DNA of 64,000 nucleotides. Origin: Hyalangium ruber (GTDB taxonomy: Bacteria > Myxococcota > Myxococcia > Myxococcales > Myxococcaceae). Below, piece after piece: positions 38,698 through 53,580 of this stretch. The notes beneath the pieces are model-generated. The model was not told where the DNA came from and searched no databases. It saw only the letters and a list, made by a program, of their open reading frames with translations. Positions within the stretch are counted from its first letter, which is position 1; every line of letters begins with the position of its first letter. Made by a program: the position numbers and the translations under genes. The DNA is taken from the NCBI RefSeq assembly GCF_034259325.1, contig NZ_JAXIVS010000005.1:434001-498000 (forward strand). Reading direction: 5' to 3'.

Positions 38698-39312
38698 TCA
38701 ACGGGGAGGACTGGCGGCGCGCTTGGAGAGCACCTGTTTCACGTCCTCCAGGGTAAGGCCCAGGGGGCGCACGGCCACGAGCAGGTGGTAGAGGACGTCG
38801 GCCGCCTCCTCCACCGCGCGCGCCTTGTCACCATCGGCGCAAGCGGTGACGAGCTCCGCGCCCTCCTCGCCGATCTTCTTCAGCCGCAGGTTCCGGTCGT
38901 CCAGGAGCCGCCGCGTGTAGCTGGGCTTCTGTCCGGGCTCGGGCGCCTTGGCGGCCCGCTCGGAGATGGTGGCATCCAGCGCCACCAGGGCATCGAACCG
39001 GCCCGGGCCGAAGCACGTCTCCTCGCCGGTGTGGCAGGCAGGGCCCGCCTTCTGGACGCGCGCGAGGACAGCGTCTCCATCACAGTCGGCGCTGAGGGAC
39101 ACCACGCGCTGCACATTGCCGCTGGTGGCGCCCTTGTGCCACAGCCCTCGGGTGCGCGAGCGGTAGTGCATCTCGCCGGTGGCCAGGGTGCGCTCCAGGG
39201 CCTCGCGGTCCGCGTGCGCCACCATCAACACGTCACCGGAGGCCGCGTCCTGCGTCACCACGGTGACCAGCCCGTTGCCCTTGGTGAAGTCGAGCTTGGA
39301 GATGTCCAGCAT
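38698..39312 (-). CDS. hisIE: Bifunctional phosphoribosyl-AMP cyclohydrolase / phosphoribosyl-ATP pyrophosphatase
   Basis: 204 residues covering steps 2 and 3 of histidine synthesis. The HisI half (1-115) has the metal sites in SADCDGD and CHTGEETC. The HisE half (about 125-195) has the helical SYTRRLLDD start and the Glu motif [13 protein letters not shown] with [15 protein letters not shown] overlaps the hisN stop by one base (TGATG). It is the last gene of the operon. The fused HisIE order is the usual one. Confidence 0.96.
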
Positions 39313-40094
39313 CAGGCCCTCTTGTTCGCGCCCAGCAGCTCACGCACCTGGGAGGAGAGCGCCGCGTTGGTCGCGATGCCATTGCCACCGAACGAGGTGC
39401 GCGCCCCCGCCCAGTCGGTAAAGACGCCCCCAGCCTCCTCGATAATGGGCTGCAGCGCCGCCGCGTCCCAGGGCGAGAGCAGCTCGTCCACCATCACCTC
39501 GGCACGACCGGTGGCCACGAGCAGGTAGCCGTAGCAATCGCCCCACGTGCGATCCATGGACACCTTGGCGGCGAGTTCCCGCCACGCCTTGCCCCGCTCG
39601 GGGAACTGGAGGAAGCGCTCGTCCGTGGACAGCACCACCGCCTGGGAGAGCTGGGCCACGGAGGACACCTGGGTGCGCTTGTCATTCCAGAAGCAGCCAG
39701 CGCCGGGAGCAGCCACCAGCAGATCATTCACGGCCGGGAAGTACGCGGCGCCCGCGAGGATGCGCTCGCCCTCGGCCACGGCCACCAGCGTGCCCCACAG
39801 CGGCACGCCGCGGATGAACGTCTTGGTCCCGTCGATGGGATCGAGGATCCACCGGCGCCGGGCGCCGGGCCGTGTTTCCCCGAACTCCTCGCCGAGAATG
39901 CCGTCCTGGGGGAAGCGCGCCTCGATCCAGTCGCGAGCCGTCTGCTCGGAGGTGCGGTCGGCCACGGTGACGGGGGTGCCGTCTCCCTTGATGTCCACGG
40001 TGACGCCTCGGCGGAAGAACTCGAGGGCCACGTCCCCGGACTTCCGAGCCACCTCGGCGGCGGCCTGCATCAACCCTTGCGCTTCGGTCGTCAT
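39312..40094 (-). CDS. hisN: Histidinol-phosphate phosphatase, inositol-monophosphatase family
   Basis: 260 residues. Metal-binding motifs of the IMPase superfamily are intact: GEEFGE near 68, [15 protein letters not shown] near 82-96 and [15 protein letters not shown] near 215. Within a complete his operon that lacks a HAD-type HisB-N phosphatase domain, it is the obvious candidate for the histidinol-phosphate step. Start overlaps the hisF stop by 4 bases and its end overlaps hisIE by one. Confidence 0.92.
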
Positions 40095-40852
40095 GCGACG
40101 CTCCTGATCTTCAGGCCGCTCGTTTGGAGCAGCGACTTGATCGCCCCGACGGTGGTGAGGCCGTCATGAAGGATGCCGGCCACCAGTGCCGCGTCCGCCC
40201 TGCCCTCCGTGAGCGCGTCGCGCACGTGCTGTGCGTTCCCCGCTCCCCCCGAGGCGATGACCGGGACGTCCACCCCCTCGGCGACGGCCCGCGTCAGCTC
40301 CAGGTCATACCCCGAACGAGCCCCGTCGCGATCGATGCTCGTGAGGAGGATCTCCCCGGCGCCGCGTTTCACACACTCGCGGGCCCAGGCCACGGCCTCC
40401 AGGTCCGTGGGGGTGCGACCTCCACGCGTGTAGACGCGCCAGCCGGTGCCCTCGCGCCGCGCGTCGATGCTGGCCACTACGCACTGGGCGCCGAAGCGCT
40501 CGGCGCACGCGGTGAGCAGCTCGGGGTTCGTCACCGCCGCCGAGTTGATGCTCACCTTGTCCGCGCCGGCGCGCAGGGCGCGGCCCACGTCGTCCACCGT
40601 GCGCACCCCGCCGCCCACGGTGAGGGGGATGAAGAGGCGCTCGGCGGTGCGTTGGACGACGTCCCAGAGTGTCTCGCGCTCATCGGCGGTCGCGGAGATG
40701 TCCAGGAAGGTGATCTCGTCCGCTCCCGCCGCCTCGTAGCGCGTGGCCAGCTCCACCGGGTCGCCCACGTCGCGCAGCCCCTCGAACTGGACGCCCTTGA
40801 CCACGCGCCCGCCCTTCATGTCGAGGCAGACGATCAGCCGTCGCGTCAGCAT
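40091..40852 (-). CDS. hisF: Imidazole glycerol phosphate synthase, cyclase subunit
   Basis: 253 residues from ATG 40852; the longer open frame reaching 41458 only reads a shadow of hisB. The TIM barrel has both halves: [13 protein letters not shown] with the catalytic Asp11-type residue, [19 protein letters not shown], and [15 protein letters not shown] with the second catalytic Asp, plus ASGGAGN near the end. It pairs with HisH, which supplies ammonia. One-base overlap with the hisB stop. Confidence 0.96.
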
Positions 40853-41388
40853 CACTTCACCTCCAGGGCGACCGAGCCCTTGGTGCTGAACACGGTGCCT
40901 GAGTCCACCATGGCGTCTCGCAGCGCCAGGCCCACGGCCTTGAAGGCGGCTTCGGTGACATGGTGGCTGTCCTTGCCCCGGAGGATGCGCACGTGGAGCG
41001 TCACCTTGGCGTGCTCGCAGAAGGAGCGCATCCAGTGGTTGTAGAGCTTGTTGCGCAGCGGGCCGCGGTAATAGAAGCGCCCGCAGGTGTCGATGGCCGC
41101 ATGCACCAGCGCATCGTCCATGGGGATGGTGCGCTCGCCGTATCGGGCGGCGGTGGGCGGAATCACCTGGTACACGGCGGTGCCCACGGCGATGGCGACG
41201 TCCTCCATGATGTGGTGGCGCAGGTCCCCGCGCGCGTGAAGCTTCATGTCCAGGCCAGCGTAGCGGGCGAAGGTTCCCAGCATGTGGTCGAAGAACTTCA
41301 GGCCGGTGTCCACCTCGGCGACACCCTTGCCGCGCACCAATTCGACGCGAATCTGCGTCTCCTTCGTCTCTCGAGTCACGACCGTCAT
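40852..41388 (-). CDS. hisB: Imidazoleglycerol-phosphate dehydratase
   Basis: 178 residues from ATG 41388, slightly shorter than the usual 190-200 but complete. Manganese-binding motifs are [12 protein letters not shown] and [12 protein letters not shown], with [17 protein letters not shown] at the start. It is monofunctional, without the HAD phosphatase half of enterobacterial HisB, which agrees with a separate hisN downstream. ATGA overlap with hisA. Confidence 0.95.
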
Positions 41389-42098
41389 GCGAACTCCCGT
41401 GCGACCGTGGCCGCATCCAGTGTGCCGGTGTAGAGCGCCATGCCGATAACGGCGCCATAGGCCCCGGCTTCCGCCAGGGCGCGCAGGTCCTCCAGGGTGG
41501 TGACGCCGCCCGAGGCGTACACGCGGTGTCGGCAGCCTCGCACCACCTCCTGCATCAGCGGCAGGTCCACGCCTCCCATCTGTCCCTCCTTGTGGACGGC
41601 GGTGACGAGCAGCCCTCCCAGGGGCAGCGGGTCCAGGACAGCCAGCACGTCGGCCACGTCCCGGGCGCTGCCAGCGGTCCAGCCGCGCGTCACCACCTCG
41701 CGGCCCTTCACGTCCGCGGCCACCACCACGCGGCCAGGGAAGCGGCTCGCCATCTCGGAGAGCCACGCGGTGTCCTCGATGGCGCGCGTGCCCACGACGG
41801 CGTACGAGGCGCCGCTGGCGAGCACTGCCTCCACCCGGGCCGTCTCGCGTACGCCTCCGCCCACCGTGAAGGTGATGCCTGGCTCGTGCCCCAGCAGCCG
41901 GGTGATGACCTCCATGTTGGAGCCCTTGCCCAGCGCCGCGTCGAGATCCACCACGTGGAAGGTGCTGAAACCGAAGCCGCGCCAGCGCTTCAGGGCGTCG
42001 ATCGGATCCTTTACCCGCACCTTCTCGGCGTCATACGAGCCGCCCACGAGCTGTACACAGGCGCCCTCGCGCAAGTCGATGGCTGGGATGGCGATCAC
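41385..42098 (-). CDS. hisA: Phosphoribosylformimino-AICAR-P isomerase
   Basis: 237 residues, (beta-alpha)8 barrel paralogous to His[18 protein letters not shown] carries the catalytic Asp8; the second Asp is absent from the expected KDGT motif and the loop reads [11 protein letters not shown], so the catalytic residue at this point should be inspected. Phosphate loops are VGGGVRET and [10 protein letters not shown]. Four-base overlaps join it to hisH and hisB. Confidence 0.93.
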
Positions 42099-42691
42099 GG
42101 CGCCACCTCCTTGAGGAACGCCTGCACGAAGGCGACGCCGGCGGTGGAGCTCTTCTCCGGGTGGAACTGCACCCCGAGCACCTTGCCGCGCCGCACCGAG
42201 GCGGGGAAACGGTCCTCTTCATGGGTGGTCCAGCCCACCACCACCTCGGGCTCCTCGGCGCGGCAGACGAAGCTGTGCGCGTAGTAGACGGTGTCCAGCT
42301 TCGTGCCCTGCACGGCGGCGTCCTCGTCCACGGAGTTCCAGCCGATATGGGGCACATGCCTGGCACGCAGCCGCGTCACCCGTCCCTTGAAGACGCCGAG
42401 CCCCTGGCCCTCGCCCTCGTCGCTGCCCTCGAAGAGCAGTTGCATGCCCAGGCAGATGCCGAGACACGGCAGTCCATTCTCCAGAGCCTGGCGCATCTTC
42501 TGGCGACCGGGCTCCATCCGGGCCGCCGCGGCGCCGAACGCGCCCACACCGGGCAGCACGAGGACGTCCGTGTCCAGTGCCTTCACCGGGTCAGTCTGCA
42601 CGCGCACGTCCGCGCCCACCACCGTGGCGATTGCCTTGGCCAGCGAGTGCAGGTTGCCCGCGCCATAGTCGAACAGGGTCACTCTCCTCAC
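42095..42691 (-). CDS. hisH: Imidazole glycerol phosphate synthase, glutaminase subunit
   Basis: 198 residues from GTG 42691, which overlaps the hisC stop (GTGA). Class-I glutamine amidotransferase: FDYGAGNLHSL at the start, nucleophile Cys in CLGICLGMQLLFEGS, oxyanion region LPGVGAFG, and the His-Glu pair in GVQFHPEKSS. It feeds ammonia to HisF, encoded three genes downstream. Confidence 0.96.
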   Translation of the reverse strand: MRRVTLFDYGAGNLHSLAKAIATVVGADVRVQTDPVKALDTDVLVLPGVGAFGAAAARMEPGRQKMRQALENGLPCLGICLGMQLLFEGSDEGEGQGLGVFKGRVTRLRARHVPHIGWNSVDEDAAVQGTKLDTVYYAHSFVCRAEEPEVVVGWTTHEEDRFPASVRRGKVLGVQFHPEKSSTAGVAFVQAFLKEVAP

Positions 42692-43725
42692 CGCCGTGCC
42701 TCCCGCAGCGCCTGGAGCGCCGCCTCCATCATGGGCCAGGGTCCACAGCCGATTCGGAGCGCATCCCCTACCCCGGTCAAGCCTTGGAATGCCCGGACGT
42801 TCACATCCAGCTCCCGCATGCGCGACGCGATCCGAGGCGCGTCTGGCAGCGGGACGAAGAGGAAATTGGCCTCGGACGGCATGGGCTCGAGGCCCTGTGC
42901 CTTCAGTGCCTCCGCCATCCGCTGGCGATTCGCCTTCGCCTCCTCGGCGCGCGCCTTCATCCAAGCGACATCCTCGGTGAGGGCGGCGATGGCCATGCGC
43001 TCGGCGATGCCGCTGTGCTTGTACGGGCCGCGCGCCTTCTCCACCTCGGCCACCAGCTCGGGACGCCCGATCGCATAGCCCACGCGCATGCCCGCCAGGC
43101 CAAACGCCTTGGAGAGCGTCCGGGTGACGAGCACGTTGGGCCGCGAGCGCACCAGGTCCACGTTGCTGGAGCTGGCGAACTCCACATACGCCTCATCCAC
43201 GAGGACGATGCCGGGGGCCGCGTCCACCAACCGCTCCAGGGCGGCGCGCGAGGCCACCGTGCTGGTGGGGTTGTTGGGTGAGCACACGTAGAGGAGCCGG
43301 GAGCCCGTGGCGAGCATCGCATCGACGTCGATGTCGAAGTCTGGGCGGAGCGGCACTGGGGTGAAATGCAGGCCGTTCACCTTCGCGAAGTAGCCCATCA
43401 TCGAGAAGGAAGGATCCGGCACGGCGATGCGCTCGCCGGGCTCCAGAAAGGCGCGCAAGGCACAGTCGATGAGATCATCCGAGCCGCAGCCCGTGGTCAG
43501 CCAGGAGGGCTCGAAGCCCGTGTACGCGGAGAGCGCCTGCTTGAGGTCCGGCGCGTAACTGATCGGGTACCGGGTGACGGTGGAGGTGGCGGCGTCGCGA
43601 AGGGCGCGCTCGGCGGCCGGGGGCATGCCGAAGAGGTTGGTGTTGTCGCTCAGGTCGACACGGCACGGCACCACGGGCGGAGCATAGAGCGAGATGTCCC
43701 GGTAGGAGGGTCGGGTGCGGATCAT
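42688..43725 (-). CDS. hisC: Histidinol-phosphate aminotransferase
   Basis: 345 residues, fold-type I PLP enzyme. NTNLFGMPP near 28, CGSDDLID near 80, CSPNNPTS near 150, VDEAYVEFA near 175 and the PLP-binding Lys in TRTLSKAFGLAGMRVGY near 205 are all in place. Located between hisD and hisH with 4-base overlaps on both sides. Confidence 0.95.
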   Translation of the reverse strand: MIRTRPSYRDISLYAPPVVPCRVDLSDNTNLFGMPPAAERALRDAATSTVTRYPISYAPDLKQALSAYTGFEPSWLTTGCGSDDLIDCALRAFLEPGERIAVPDPSFSMMGYFAKVNGLHFTPVPLRPDFDIDVDAMLATGSRLLYVCSPNNPTSTVASRAALERLVDAAPGIVLVDEAYVEFASSSNVDLVRSRPNVLVTRTLSKAFGLAGMRVGYAIGRPELVAEVEKARGPYKHSGIAERMAIAALTEDVAWMKARAEEAKANRQRMAEALKAQGLEPMPSEANFLFVPLPDAPRIASRMRELDVNVRAFQGLTGVGDALRIGCGPWPMMEAALQALREARR

Positions 43726-45023
43726 GGATTCCTCCAGGCCCGGGCGGCTTCGGCGTGAGCGAAGAGGCCCTCACTGTCGGCCAGGGCGCCCACGTCATCG
43801 GCGAGCCGCGCCGCCGCGTCCCGGTCCACGCGCTGGTAGGTCGTCCACCGGTAGAAGTCGAGCACGGACAGCCCCGAGTAGGCGTGCCCCAGGCCCGCGG
43901 TAGGAAGCACGTGGTTGGCGCCCGTCATGTAGTCACCGAAGGCCACGGAGGCGCGCTCGCCGAGGAACACGGTGCCACAGTTGCGCACGAGGGAGAGGTG
44001 CTCCTGGGGTGCGGCGGTGGCAATCAGCAGATGTTCGGGCGCGAAGTCCGAGACGAAGGGCCACGCCTCGTCCAGAGAGCCCACACTGAGCACGGCGCCG
44101 CGCTCGCGCAGGGCGGTAGCAACGATCTCCCGGCGTTGAGCCCGGGCCGCCGCGCGCTCCACCGCCGAGGCCACGGCTTCGGCCAGCGCGGAGCCCACCG
44201 CGAGCGTCACACAGCAGGCGTCCGGATCGTGCTCGGCCTGGGCGAGCATTTCGCGGGCCACGGCCTCTGGATTCGCCGATCCGTCGGCGACGACGAGGAT
44301 CTCACTGGGCCCGGCCGGCGCGTCGATGGCGACGGCGTCCACCACCTGGAGCTTGGCCGCGGCGACATAGGCATTGCCGGGGCCGACGATGCGATCCACG
44401 CGCGGCACGCTCTGGGTGCCATAGGCCATGGCCGCCACGGCGCCCGCTCCGCCCAGGGCGAAGACTCGGTCCGCGCCCGCGAGCGCCGCCGCCGCGAGGA
44501 CACCCGCCGCGGGCAGCCCATCCGGCCCTGGAGGCGAGCAGACGATGACCTCCCCTACTCCGGCCACCTTCGCCGGCACCACGCCCATGAGCACGCTGCT
44601 GGGGTACACGGCCCGGCCACCTGGTGCGTATACGCCCACGCGTCCGAGCGGATCGGGCCGCCGACCCACGACGACACCAGGCTCGGTCTCCACCTCGGTG
44701 GCGTGGGGGCGCTGAGCGGCGTGCGCCTTGGAGATGTTACGAGCGGCGCGCTCCAAGGCGTGGCGCACCTTCGGATCGAGCGAGGCGAGCGCCGCCTCCC
44801 AGCGGGACCGAGGCACCTCCACGGCGGTAAGGGTGGCACGGTCGAACTCTCGTGCCATCTCCAGGAGCGCCCGGTCCCCGTCACGGCGGACACGCTCGAT
44901 GATGTCGCGAGTGCGGGAGGCAACCTGGGCGTCGGACTGGCCCGAGCGGTCCAGGAGGCGACGTCGGTCCTCGGTGGACAGGGCGGCCAGGGGGCCGCGG
45001 TACTTGAGGGCGTCGGCGCTCAC
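43722..45023 (-). CDS. hisD: Histidinol dehydrogenase
   Basis: 433 residues. Zinc-dependent four-electron oxidation of histidinol to histidine. Signatures: VYAPGGRAVYPSSVLM, FALGGAGAVAAMAYGT, GPGNAYVAAAK, DAPAGPSEILVVAD, AQAEHDPDA, and FAPEHLLI with the catalytic Glu-His pair. The C-terminal SGLSVLDFYRWTTYQ is typical. Four-base overlaps with hisG and hisC. Confidence 0.96.
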   Translation of the reverse strand: MSADALKYRGPLAALSTEDRRRLLDRSGQSDAQVASRTRDIIERVRRDGDRALLEMAREFDRATLTAVEVPRSRWEAALASLDPKVRHALERAARNISKAHAAQRPHATEVETEPGVVVGRRPDPLGRVGVYAPGGRAVYPSSVLMGVVPAKVAGVGEVIVCSPPGPDGLPAAGVLAAAALAGADRVFALGGAGAVAAMAYGTQSVPRVDRIVGPGNAYVAAAKLQVVDAVAIDAPAGPSEILVVADGSANPEAVAREMLAQAEHDPDACCVTLAVGSALAEAVASAVERAAARAQRREIVATALRERGAVLSVGSLDEAWPFVSDFAPEHLLIATAAPQEHLSLVRNCGTVFLGERASVAFGDYMTGANHVLPTAGLGHAYSGLSVLDFYRWTTYQRVDRDAAARLADDVGALADSEGLFAHAEAARAWRNP

Positions 45024-45874
45024 GGCATCAACCTCTCGATGCGGGTGACGAGGATACCCTCGCAGCCCAGGGCCTTCAGGGCGTTGATGGTGCGGTAGAT
45101 GGTCTTGGCGGGGACGACGGCATGCACGGCGACGTAGTCACTGTTCAGGATGTCCACGACCGTGGGGCCATTCAGTCCGGGGAGCACTTCCCGTACGCCG
45201 GAGAGCGCCTTCCGAGGCACGTTGGCCATCAGGTAGCGCTTGCCCCGAGCGGCGAGCACCGAGCCCAGCGCCTGCTTCAGCTCCTCCAACTTGCGAGCGG
45301 CCTCTGGGGTGTTGCTCTTGCTGGCCACCAACCGGGCGCTGGACTCCAGCACGGTGACCACTTCGCGCAGACCGTTCATCTTGAGGGTGGAGCCCGTGGA
45401 GGTCAGGTCCACGACGATGTCCGCGATGCCCAGGTGGGGAGCAATCTCCGCCGCTCCGGACACGGGCACCACGGTGACCTGCTGCCCCCGCTTCTCGAAG
45501 AACTCCTGGGTGAGCCGGGGGAAGCAGGAGGCCACGCGCATCCCATTCTTCACATCGTCGGCGGAGGTGATGCCGCTCTCCTCACGGGCGGCGACGACGA
45601 GTCGGCACTTACCGAACTCCAGGTCCATCAGGAGGTCCAGCTCACGGCCGGCCTCGTTGACCAGGTCCCATCCGGTGACGCCGGCCTGGGCGGCGCCATC
45701 GGCGACGAACTCGGGGATGTCCTGAGCGCGGACGAAGATGGCTTCGAATTCACCGCCGAGGGAGGCAGTGAGCGCCCGCTCGCCACGGACGCGGACCTCG
45801 AGTCCGGCGTCATTGAACAGCTCACGAACCTCTTCGGAGAGGCGACCTTTGTTGGGGAGGGCGATCTTCAGCAT
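45020..45874 (-). CDS. hisG: ATP phosphoribosyltransferase, long form
   Basis: 284 residues from ATG 45874; a start at 45952 would run through the attenuator hairpin and is rejected. First and committed step of histidine synthesis. LKIALPNKGRLSEEV, AGVTGWDLV and the phosphoribosyl loop DLTSTGSTLKMNGL are present. The C-terminal 70 residues form the ACT-like regulatory domain of the long HisG_L form, so no HisZ is needed and feedback inhibition by histidine is expected. A perfect intrinsic terminator ends 41 bases upstream, and a His-rich leader ORF precedes it. Confidence 0.95.
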   Translation of the reverse strand: MLKIALPNKGRLSEEVRELFNDAGLEVRVRGERALTASLGGEFEAIFVRAQDIPEFVADGAAQAGVTGWDLVNEAGRELDLLMDLEFGKCRLVVAAREESGITSADDVKNGMRVASCFPRLTQEFFEKRGQQVTVVPVSGAAEIAPHLGIADIVVDLTSTGSTLKMNGLREVVTVLESSARLVASKSNTPEAARKLEELKQALGSVLAARGKRYLMANVPRKALSGVREVLPGLNGPTVVDILNSDYVAVHAVVPAKTIYRTINALKALGCEGILVTRIERLMP

Positions 45875-45915
45875 CGGGGGATTCCAGGGTGGTGTGTGGA
45901 GAGAACGCTGAAACG

Positions 45916-45945
45916 AAAAAAGCCCGTCCTGGGGGGACGGGCTTT
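45916..45945 (-). terminator. Attenuator terminator of the his operon
   Basis: On the minus strand AAAGCCCGTCC (45945-45935), a 5-base loop, then GGACGGGCTTT (45929-45919) running into a T tract: an 11-bp perfect stem ending in six U. It lies between the leader ORF and hisG and points towards hisG, which has no other gene upstream to terminate. A leader segment GACGGG (46021-46016) is identical to part of its 3' arm and could pair with the 5' arm (CCCGTC, 45941-45936) as an antiterminator. Confidence 0.88.
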
Positions 45946-45979
45946 CGGTCACTGCGGCAGGGCCGGGAGGGTGGTTCTT

Positions 45980-46069
45980 CTAGGCAGTCACCCAGGCATG
46001 CGCGCGGCGAGCGGTCCCGTCAGGGCCGAGCCGATGATGCGCATGATGGTGATGCACGGAGAGACGCAC
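45980..46069 (-). CDS. hisL: his operon leader peptide (attenuator)
   Basis: Short frame GTG 46069 to TAG 45980, 29 codons, starting MRLSVHHHHAHHRLG; a second in-frame GTG at 46057 gives 25 codons. Six of seven consecutive residues are His (CAT CAC CAT CAT GCG CAT CAT, 46054-46034), and another His follows near the end. It sits directly before a perfect intrinsic terminator and hisG, the classical layout of ribosome-mediated attenuation. Within it CATGCGC (46045-46039) is complementary to GCGCATG (46003-45997), a candidate pause stem that a ribosome stalled on the His codons would open. No good Shine-Dalgarno is placed for either GTG. The his-run and context are direct observation; the mechanism is inferred. 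Confidence 0.8.
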   Translation of the reverse strand: MRLSVHHHHAHHRLGPDGTARRAHAWVTA

Positions 46070-46078
46070 GGCTCCATG

Positions 46079-46106
46079 AGTATCGGAAAGCGCCCCGACC
46101 CGTCAA
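46079..46106 (-). promoter_or_regulatory. Candidate sigma-70-type promoter of the his operon
   Basis: TTGACG (46106-46101), a 16-base spacer, and GATACT (46084-46079) on the minus strand match the -35 and -10 consensus at 5/6 and 4/6. The start would fall near 46073, only a few bases before the first leader GTG, so the leader might be translated nearly leaderless. The remaining bases 46107-46250 up to the divergent Rpn gene showed nothing else. Confidence 0.5.
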
Positions 46107-46250
46107 CCAGGACGCCCCCCAACCCAAGCGTCCCGAATGAGAGACTCAGCATCTCCCGAGCGGGACTGTCGCTGTCTGCGGCAAGTCCTCAACGCTGCCG
46201 TTTGCCTGCACGCCAGCGCTGGCCCGTCTCATGCTTGAGCGCTGCGGGCG

Positions 46251-47267
46251 ATGTCCGGCCCGCACGATCTCTTTGTTCGCTTCACCTTCGGCCACCCCGA
46301 GCGAGCCGCCGCCGAGCTGCGGGCTGTGCTGCCACCCGAGGTGGTGGCCCAGGTGGACTGGTCCACGCTGAATCGTGAGCCAAGCTCGGTGGTGGACCCG
46401 GAGCTACGAGAGACCGAGAGCGATCTGCTGTTCTCAGCCCGCGTTCGGAGTGGCCGTTCAGTCCTCTTCTATGTGTTGCTGGAGCACCAGTCGTCGGTGG
46501 ACCCGTGGATGGCCCTGCGCATGCTGCGTTATGTCGTTCGCCAGCTCGACCACTGGCGCAAACAGCACCCTGAGCGCGTGCGGCTGCCAGTCATCATCCC
46601 GCTGGTCATGTACCACGGGCCCGAAGGCGCCTGGTCCGCGCCTCGCCGTATCGAAGAACTCTTCGACTTCCCTCAAGAGGGTGCGCGCCCAGAGACCTGG
46701 AAAGCGCTGGTGCCGCACTTCGGATATCGGGTGGATGACCTGACCTCTGAGCGAGCAGAGGCATGGATGGCGCGTCCCGGCCCACCGCTGGTGCGGCTGG
46801 CGTTACTGGCCCTGCGCTTCGGGCGCACCCTGGAACTGGCTCAGCAGTTGCCGGGTTGGACTGCGCTCTTCGAGCAGGTGAGCGCGGCTCCGGGCGGGGT
46901 CGAAGAGGTAGGTACGGTGGTACACTACCTACTACGGGTAGGAACTCCCTCCTCACAGACCCTCGTAGTGGGCATGCTACGTTCTGTGGTGGGGGTGCAA
47001 CGAGCGGAGGAGTTGATGGGAACCTGGGGTGAGGAATTCCTTGAAAAAGGCCGCCAGCAAGGTTGGCTCAAGGGATTGGCCGAGGGGCAAGCCAAGGGAC
47101 GTGCCGAGGGTGTTCTCCGGATTCTGGCCACGCGCGGCGTGCAGGTGGATGACACCACCCGGCAACGCATACTGGCATGCACAGACTTGGCGACCCTCGA
47201 TCGCTGGTTCGACCGCGCCCTGGCAGCCACCCGCCTCTCGGATGTGCTGGAAGACAAAGGACAGTGA
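46251..47267 (+). CDS. Rpn-family recombination-promoting nuclease / putative transposase
   Basis: 338 residues. N-terminal PD-(D/E)xK-type nuclease domain: SGPHDLFVRFTFGHPE, then ETESDLLFSARV with the metal Asp and FYVLLEHQSS with the E-x-Q site, followed by MALRMLRYVVRQLDHW and PVIIPLVMYHGP, all diagnostic of the Rpn (YhgA-like) family. The C-terminus carries the usual Gly/Lys/Glu-rich helix (GWLKGLAEGQAKGRAEG). Known members cut DNA and stimulate RecA-independent recombination. No inverted repeats or partner gene were seen, so it is a stand-alone copy divergent from his. Confidence 0.88.
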   Translation: MSGPHDLFVRFTFGHPERAAAELRAVLPPEVVAQVDWSTLNREPSSVVDPELRETESDLLFSARVRSGRSVLFYVLLEHQSSVDPWMALRMLRYVVRQLDHWRKQHPERVRLPVIIPLVMYHGPEGAWSAPRRIEELFDFPQEGARPETWKALVPHFGYRVDDLTSERAEAWMARPGPPLVRLALLALRFGRTLELAQQLPGWTALFEQVSAAPGGVEEVGTVVHYLLRVGTPSSQTLVVGMLRSVVGVQRAEELMGTWGEEFLEKGRQQGWLKGLAEGQAKGRAEGVLRILATRGVQVDDTTRQRILACTDLATLDRWFDRALAATRLSDVLEDKGQ

Positions 47268-51371: not shown

Positions 51372-53390
<2,019 letters not shown>

Positions 53391-53580
53391 ACGAGGCGAG
53401 GGTGTAGCGCACGGGGGAGCACCATTCAACCTGCCCCGCAGGATCTGCGGAGTGTCCGTTGGGGACGCAAACCTTGCGCCCCTCCCGCCTCGGTCCCACC
53501 GTCCTTCTGGGGGACCGTGGCCTGGACCCGAAAGTGCATTGCCGAATCTCGAAGCCATTTCGAGCTGGAGTCACTTCATC
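53391..53580 (+). other. Leader region of the CBS gene with several hairpins
   Basis: Four perfect stems: CCGCAG/CTGCGG at 53436-53450, CGCAA/TTGCG near 53466-53478, CGGTCCC/GGGACCG at 53491-53517 and CTCGAA/TTCGAG at 53548-53564; the last ends one base before the CBS ribosome site GGAG. No convincing promoter hexamers were seen. Confidence 0.45.

Follow-up and report, generated by a model that had tools for sequence, protein, structure and literature searches.

The window analysed here, a 64,000-nucleotide stretch of the Hyalangium ruber genome, carries a his operon on its minus strand. The first gene of the operon, hisG, encodes an ATP phosphoribosyltransferase (45020-45874; TIGR00070 and TIGR03455, both above cut-off), and is followed by hisD, hisC, hisH, hisA, hisB, hisF, hisN and hisIE in that order (38698-45023), with hisC, hisA and hisB named by their best NCBIfam matches, which fall below the curated cut-off. 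The ATG at 45874 is the point where the matches of relatives begin; the longest ORF call for hisG (45020-45952, minus strand) begins at a GTG at 45952, 5' of the terminator described below, and would span it. The upstream neighbour (46251-47267, plus strand) adjoins the his promoter and resembles Rpn-family recombination-promoting nucleases (TIGR01784, below cut-off). Because this neighbour is divergent, no other transcript stands out as one that the terminator might end.

All features of the hisG leader lie on the minus strand. A promoter-like pair listed in an earlier note on this DNA, TTGACG (-35, 46106-46101) and GATACT (-10, 46084-46079) with a spacer of 16, was recovered by a promoter scan as the sole such site within 45800-46300 (501 bases), where 50 shuffles gave a mean of 0.0; if the conserved TA is the start of the -10 element, that element would be TACTCA (46082-46077). 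A predicted leader peptide ORF follows (45980-46069), comprising a GTG start, 29 codons and a TAG stop (VRLSVHHHHAHHRLGPDGTARRAHAWVTA), with the predicted transcription start at most about 3 nt from its first base. Within it is the frame CAT CAC CAT CAT GCG CAT CAT (46054-46034), encoding HHHHAHH, whose presence upstream of hisG had likewise been noted. Overlapping these His codons is strand 1 of a putative protector or pause hairpin, CATGCGC (46045-46039), complementary to strand 2, GCGCATG (46003-45997), which in the predicted antiterminator pairs downstream instead. GACGGG (46021-46016), the putative antiterminator strand, is complementary to CCCGTC (45941-45936), the core of the terminator 5' arm that is common to antiterminator and terminator, so that both complementarities put forward in the earlier note are present. 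As in ribosome-mediated attenuators, an intrinsic terminator (45946-45916) lies between the leader ORF and hisG, consisting of a GC-rich hairpin of 12 pairs (45946-45918) and a U6 tract (45921-45916). The whole leader folds better than its shuffles (z = -3.46). A terminator between the leader ORF and the first gene was detected by script in 114 of 116 leaders; the other two (L062 and L075), and nine duplicates among the 114, were dropped before counts were made.

Relatives that keep the window's type of hisG and lose the His codons, which would speak against a histidine-sensing leader, were not seen. Among named loci, which were the best 80 of 106 from a HisG search and belonged to the Myxococcaceae/Archangiaceae, the Gemmatimonadota, three Candidatus Eisenbacteria and some organisms of unclear title, a His-rich leader was found to precede hisG in 78, whilst the remaining two have just 20 and 190 nt of upstream sequence. 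The peptide was also present in all 34 fetched family loci with the HisG type of the window, a set that overlaps with the named loci. From 96 family genomes, 73 gave a HisG match, 71 of them of the window's type and the other two 36% and 34% identical. A leader model built from 49 myxobacterial leaders alone (R1) matched beside hisG in all 71 genomes carrying the window's type, again a set overlapping with the named loci. When the model was searched against the phylum under stricter filters, 72 of 179 genomes matched, these being the same 71, with one match each beside hisG, and G130, where the match (E 1.4e-4) lies away from hisG. Three genomes (G023, G027 and G031) have a second, weak match to the 3' part of the model.

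A rule independent of the model, namely a short ATG or GTG ORF with at least four His in eight residues upstream of hisG, was satisfied by 115 of the 137 loci with at least 300 nt of upstream sequence, and all 22 loci lacking such an ORF fall among the 25 in the set that carry another HisG type. The same rule was satisfied by 1/137 on the reverse strand and by 0-1/137 in each of ten dinucleotide shuffles, hence the His run in these leaders is not due to chance. Histidine is kept whilst both of its codons are used, with CAT 231 times and CAC 78 times in 56 myxobacterial leaders, and CAC 118 times and CAT 104 times in 46 non-myxobacterial leaders. A run of codons for the operon's own product, set in a short leader ORF as in ribosome-mediated attenuators, is thus conserved, and translation of that ORF is predicted.

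Normal promoter geometry relative to the -35 element is a guide to where transcription starts. The TTGAC motif begins 34-39 nt before the likely start codon in 51 of 54 distinct myxobacterial leaders (0.08 expected from the local background) and in 43 of 48 distinct others (0.15 expected), that is, in 94 of 102 overall, counted on unique 48-nt stretches (54 + 48 + 3). The best -10-like hexamer, picked as the best of five spacings, ends 5-11 nt before the start. With this geometry, transcription would begin at most about 3 bases from the start codon, and the leader mRNA is probably leaderless, a prediction made from promoter spacing. The TTGAC spacing is absent in L037, L066, L078, L044, L048, L061, L073 and L074. 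Shine-Dalgarno-like motifs are scarce, occurring between -16 and -5 in 2 of 54 myxobacterial and 1 of 48 other leaders, and between -20 and -1 in 6 of 54 (the window included, with a GGAG a few nt 5' of GTG 46069) and 2 of 48. The Cappable-seq paper on M. xanthus contains start-site data, and its main text mentions neither 'hisG' nor 'leaderless' (PMC8844925).

The window itself offers two starts, and the peptide most likely begins at GTG 46069, at or near the predicted transcription start, rather than at GTG 46057. On this point the reading of the earlier note, a ribosome-mediated his attenuator, probably has to be amended; conservation and predicted folds otherwise largely uphold it. A classical attenuator led by a Shine-Dalgarno sequence would operate the same switch with a peptide begun at the inner GTG 46057 and GGAG as the ribosome site. 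That motif ends 14 nt before GTG 46057, and alternative starts exist in 25 of the 54 distinct leaders from myxobacteria; when the start nearest the His run is taken, TTGAC stands at 34-39 nt in just 34 of 54. The start choice behind the larger counts did prefer starts with a -35-like motif, but leaders with a single possible start (29 of 54 myxobacterial, 41 of 48 other) avoid any such choice, and in these TTGAC lies 34-39 nt upstream in 26/29 and 37/41, respectively, which makes the Shine-Dalgarno-led version unlikely.

The consequences of translation for the leader RNA were explored by folding, with a stalled ribosome represented by a mask over all RNA as far as 12 nt beyond a His codon placed in the A site. 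In free, unmasked RNA, the CATGCGC of the His run pairs with GCGCATG, a local hairpin takes up GACGGG and the terminator forms. The predicted antiterminator is released when the His region is masked, a comparison that the earlier note had proposed: before the terminator 3' arm is made, the stalled RNA is predicted to form a long hairpin (-38.3 kcal/mol) that GACGGG/CCCGTC closes and that also draws in GCGCATG and the sequence around the stop codon. Once the 3' arm is present, the terminator is again the fold of minimum energy despite the mask on the His codons, and so the order of folding during transcription must decide the switch. In the predicted folding of the growing transcript, an antiterminator mutually exclusive with the terminator would thus be favoured by stalling, as in ribosome-mediated attenuators.

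In the window, upstream RNA captured a share of 0.78 of the terminator 5' arm in the stalled state, 0.33 in the free RNA and 0.33 when the ribosome stood at the stop codon, and the same script gave 0.78, 0.14 and 0.34 for hisL of E. coli. Means over the 56 myxobacterial leaders were 0.83 stalled, 0.40 free and 0.50 at the stop codon, whilst the contrast was smaller in the 46 others (0.77, 0.60 and 0.61). Shuffled leaders in the stalled state had mean shares of 0.61 (against 0.83) and 0.63 (against 0.77), and just 9/56 myxobacterial and 3/46 other leaders beat all 30 of their shuffles, hence this comparison is not decisive for single leaders. The antiterminator duplex was on average stronger than in dinucleotide shuffles, with -16.5 against -14.1 kcal/mol in the 56 myxobacterial leaders and -20.6 against -16.3 kcal/mol in the 46 others, though it ranked in the best 5 of 100 shuffles in just 10/56 and 22/46, and those of L037 and L078, with the arm chosen by script, were worse than most of their own shuffles. 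Swapping of terminators mattered in myxobacteria (p = 1.2e-4) and not clearly in the others (p = 0.12), p-values that overstate independence since the rows are relatives.

Relatives were aligned in two sets, A1 with 49 of the 56 myxobacterial leaders (leaving out L037, L064, L065, L066, L078, L110 and L112) and A2 with 40 of the 46 others (leaving out L048, L070, L072, L074, L076 and L079). The earlier note had proposed testing whether the His run and the terminator co-vary among relatives; both are kept, but covariation did not exceed that of column shuffles. Pairing holds in 97.3% of alignment cells for the pause stem (helix 1). Apart from one gapped cell, every one of the 49 rows of A1 pairs GACGGG with CCCGTC, without any variation, which amounts to conservation and not covariation; one pair further in (columns 68 and 130), G-U occurs in 26 rows, G-C in 19 and A-U in 4. 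Two of the 26 antiterminator pairs of A1 hold in just 6-7 of the 49 rows and another in 8, the poorly kept pairs including some in the apical part. The antiterminator covariation score was reached by 15/500 column shuffles in A1 and 111/500 in A2, and the share of paired cells by 262/500 and 190/500, because the strands hardly vary. In A2, pairing reaches 85.4% of cells, compared with 35-60% when the partners are slid.

In our view it is highly probable that ribosome-mediated transcription attenuation controls the his operon at this locus, and that the mRNA from which the leader peptide would be translated is probably leaderless; the leader and terminator would most likely switch the his genes on only under scarce histidine. 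RNA polymerase would start at or a few bases from GTG 46069, and a ribosome would load on the 5' end without a Shine-Dalgarno sequence and trail the polymerase. With ample His-tRNA, the ribosome would pass the six clustered His codons (46054-46034) and reach the stop codon, GACGGG would be recaptured in local hairpins, and the terminator (45946-45918) would form and end transcription before hisG. With scarce His-tRNA, the ribosome would wait on the His codons and block strand 1 of the protector hairpin, allowing GACGGG (46021-46016) and strand 2 (46003-45997) to fold with downstream RNA into the long antiterminator. This would tie up CCCGTC (45941-45936) before the terminator 3' arm is made, and with the terminator prevented the polymerase would read on into hisG-D-C-H-A-B-F-N-IE.

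The terminated leader RNA or the peptide could instead act mainly in trans, like rnTrpL and peTrpL of Sinorhizobium meliloti, for which such action of a leaderless trp leader has been published (PMC7298713). One-base indels in two loci (L021 2311-2465 and L105 344-504) shift the C-terminal frame of the peptide and leave the RNA strands unchanged, which hints at a role of the RNA in cis. A mainly trans-acting leader is very improbable, though an additional role in trans may exist. L021 comes from a MAG, where an assembly error is possible. A constitutive promoter-proximal terminator with no amino-acid sensing, beside which the His codons would be incidental, agrees with the free RNA already folding into the terminator; it is harder still to sustain, as it leaves unaccounted for a His run kept with both synonymous codons before hisG in three phyla and virtually absent from the shuffles (0-1/137). 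T-box leaders are not known to include a conserved run of His codons, and the window holds no T-box at the Rfam gathering threshold. Control by a T-box or a HisR-type protein, described for Firmicutes and Actinobacteria in passages of two papers (PMC9413887, PMC3896937), is scarcely credible here.

The his leader system is not confined to myxobacteria, being common to Gemmatimonadota and Candidatus Eisenbacteria as judged by leader sequence. Leaders from both groups were matched by R1 over its full length, with a best E of 1.8e-18 and a weakest of 0.0075 (L070), whilst in L048 and L052 the match was to the terminator only. For 14 genomes reached through their loci, the model gave one match each in 11 and none, at that threshold, in those of L048, L070 and L079. 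A search of 150 genomes of the Gemmatimonadota phylum yielded 31 with one match each, counted whatever the status or position of hisG, one of which was to the terminator only (G328). HisG relationships were sketched in a quick, unrooted tree that used 67 of the 81 rows, 14 closely related myxobacterial ones being omitted, and that has 22 open forks. It gives no direction of transfer; on it, two label changes are required for the myxobacterial rows and two for the three Eisenbacteria. Transfer of the window-type hisG and its leader between phyla appears likely, because the rest of the phylum's matched genomes carry distant HisG types. The HisG proteins of L005 (titled Comamonas) and L043 (titled Kuenenia) group with those of myxobacteria and Gemmatimonadota, and their titles or bins may be wrong.

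Loci with other HisG types (28-40% identical) were also fetched from the Myxococcota, 26 in number: 24 came from the 44 genomes with a match outside the family, and the other two were the family members with a divergent HisG. A leader was found by the four-in-eight His rule in three of these (L120, L121 and L128); relaxing the rule to three in eight added L127, L116 and L132, only the first of which is leader-like by eye. TTGAC lies 36 or 38 nt before the ATG in L120, L121, L127 and L128; all four have a GC hairpin, whose T run is good in L120 and L128 and poor in L121 and L127. Their 5' arm shares when stalled, free and at the stop codon were 0.88/0.86/0.02 (L120), 0.75/0.32/0.31 (L121), 0.87/0.87/0.62 (L127) and 1.0/0.8/0.42 (L128). 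These four, with different short His peptides, may form another class of his leaders with a leaderless start. The chances are about even that the leaderless his attenuator of Myxococcota, Gemmatimonadota and Candidatus Eisenbacteria is a shared module, either old or spread by horizontal transfer, that travels with one HisG type; as leaderless His leaders would also occur with unrelated HisG, a sensor ORF at the first base of the transcript may be the rule for amino-acid attenuators of these phyla. The odds of this reading are lowered by two of the four leaders, in which U tracts are poor and folds mixed.

The closest familiar arrangement is the enterobacterial hisL, in which a His codon run in a short leader and a terminator precede hisG and which behaved as the window leader did in the fold test. 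In a search of 26 kb, R1 gives the E. coli his leader (L147 2002-2143) 21.7 bits (E 3.1e-5), which reflects either a common layout or remote kinship. The promoter spacing differs: by eye, TTGCTT of E. coli lies 68 nt before the hisL ATG, compared with TTGAC 34-39 nt before the start in myxobacterial-type leaders. The Rfam His_leader model (RF00514) recognises the E. coli leader (131.6 bits), has no match in the window, L081, L041 or L034, and was absent even among 13 weak matches of the window leader at a permissive threshold. Nothing in Rfam exceeded its gathering score on this leader, the best weak matches being rnk_pseudo (20.4 bits against 55) and Thr_leader (19.3 bits against 55), the latter to the terminator hairpin only. 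The probable his attenuator, best read as leaderless, is found in lineages, and has an architecture, that the Rfam model does not cover.

Leaderless sensors of other amino acids offer parallels. Canestrari et al. in 2020 reportedly described mycobacterial leaderless polycysteine attenuators, with a leaderless short ORF carrying a run of the sensed amino acid, cysteine there as opposed to histidine in the window, a likeness drawn from the title of the report only. The trpL attenuator of S. meliloti is leaderless, its transcript beginning with the leader peptide start codon, but it senses Trp and is alphaproteobacterial (PMC7298713). Histidine leader peptides of Firmicutes (the B. cereus group, Eubacteriales and Erysipelotrichales; hisS/hisZ of bacilli) have His codons, a terminator and an antiterminator, but belong to a different phylum, and the passages on them do not mention a leaderless start (PMC9413887, PMC2965389).

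No description of a window-type his leader was found by title or abstract among the open-literature matches listed for Myxococcus, Gemmatimonas, delta-proteobacteria/Geobacter, and leaderless or his-operon attenuation, subscription papers being outside this scope. Ribosome-mediated his attenuation would thus be extended to three phyla for which those matches hold no report. The predicted leaderless start raises the question of how a ribosome loading on a bare 5' end couples with RNA polymerase within a few dozen bases, and the leader may offer a small, natural sensor of histidine in myxobacteria and a means of marking his operons that phyla have in common. A crude script was used to look for similar leaders at other amino-acid loci of this genome, three of them resembling trpE, one ilvB and one, weakly, leuA. 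No convincing leader emerged; the script listed just ORFs with Trp pairs, a long way upstream of two of the trpE-like genes, and a single short ORF free of His. Elsewhere in the window, a TPP riboswitch (Rfam RF00059, 82.2 bits) was identified at 53285-53396 on the minus strand.
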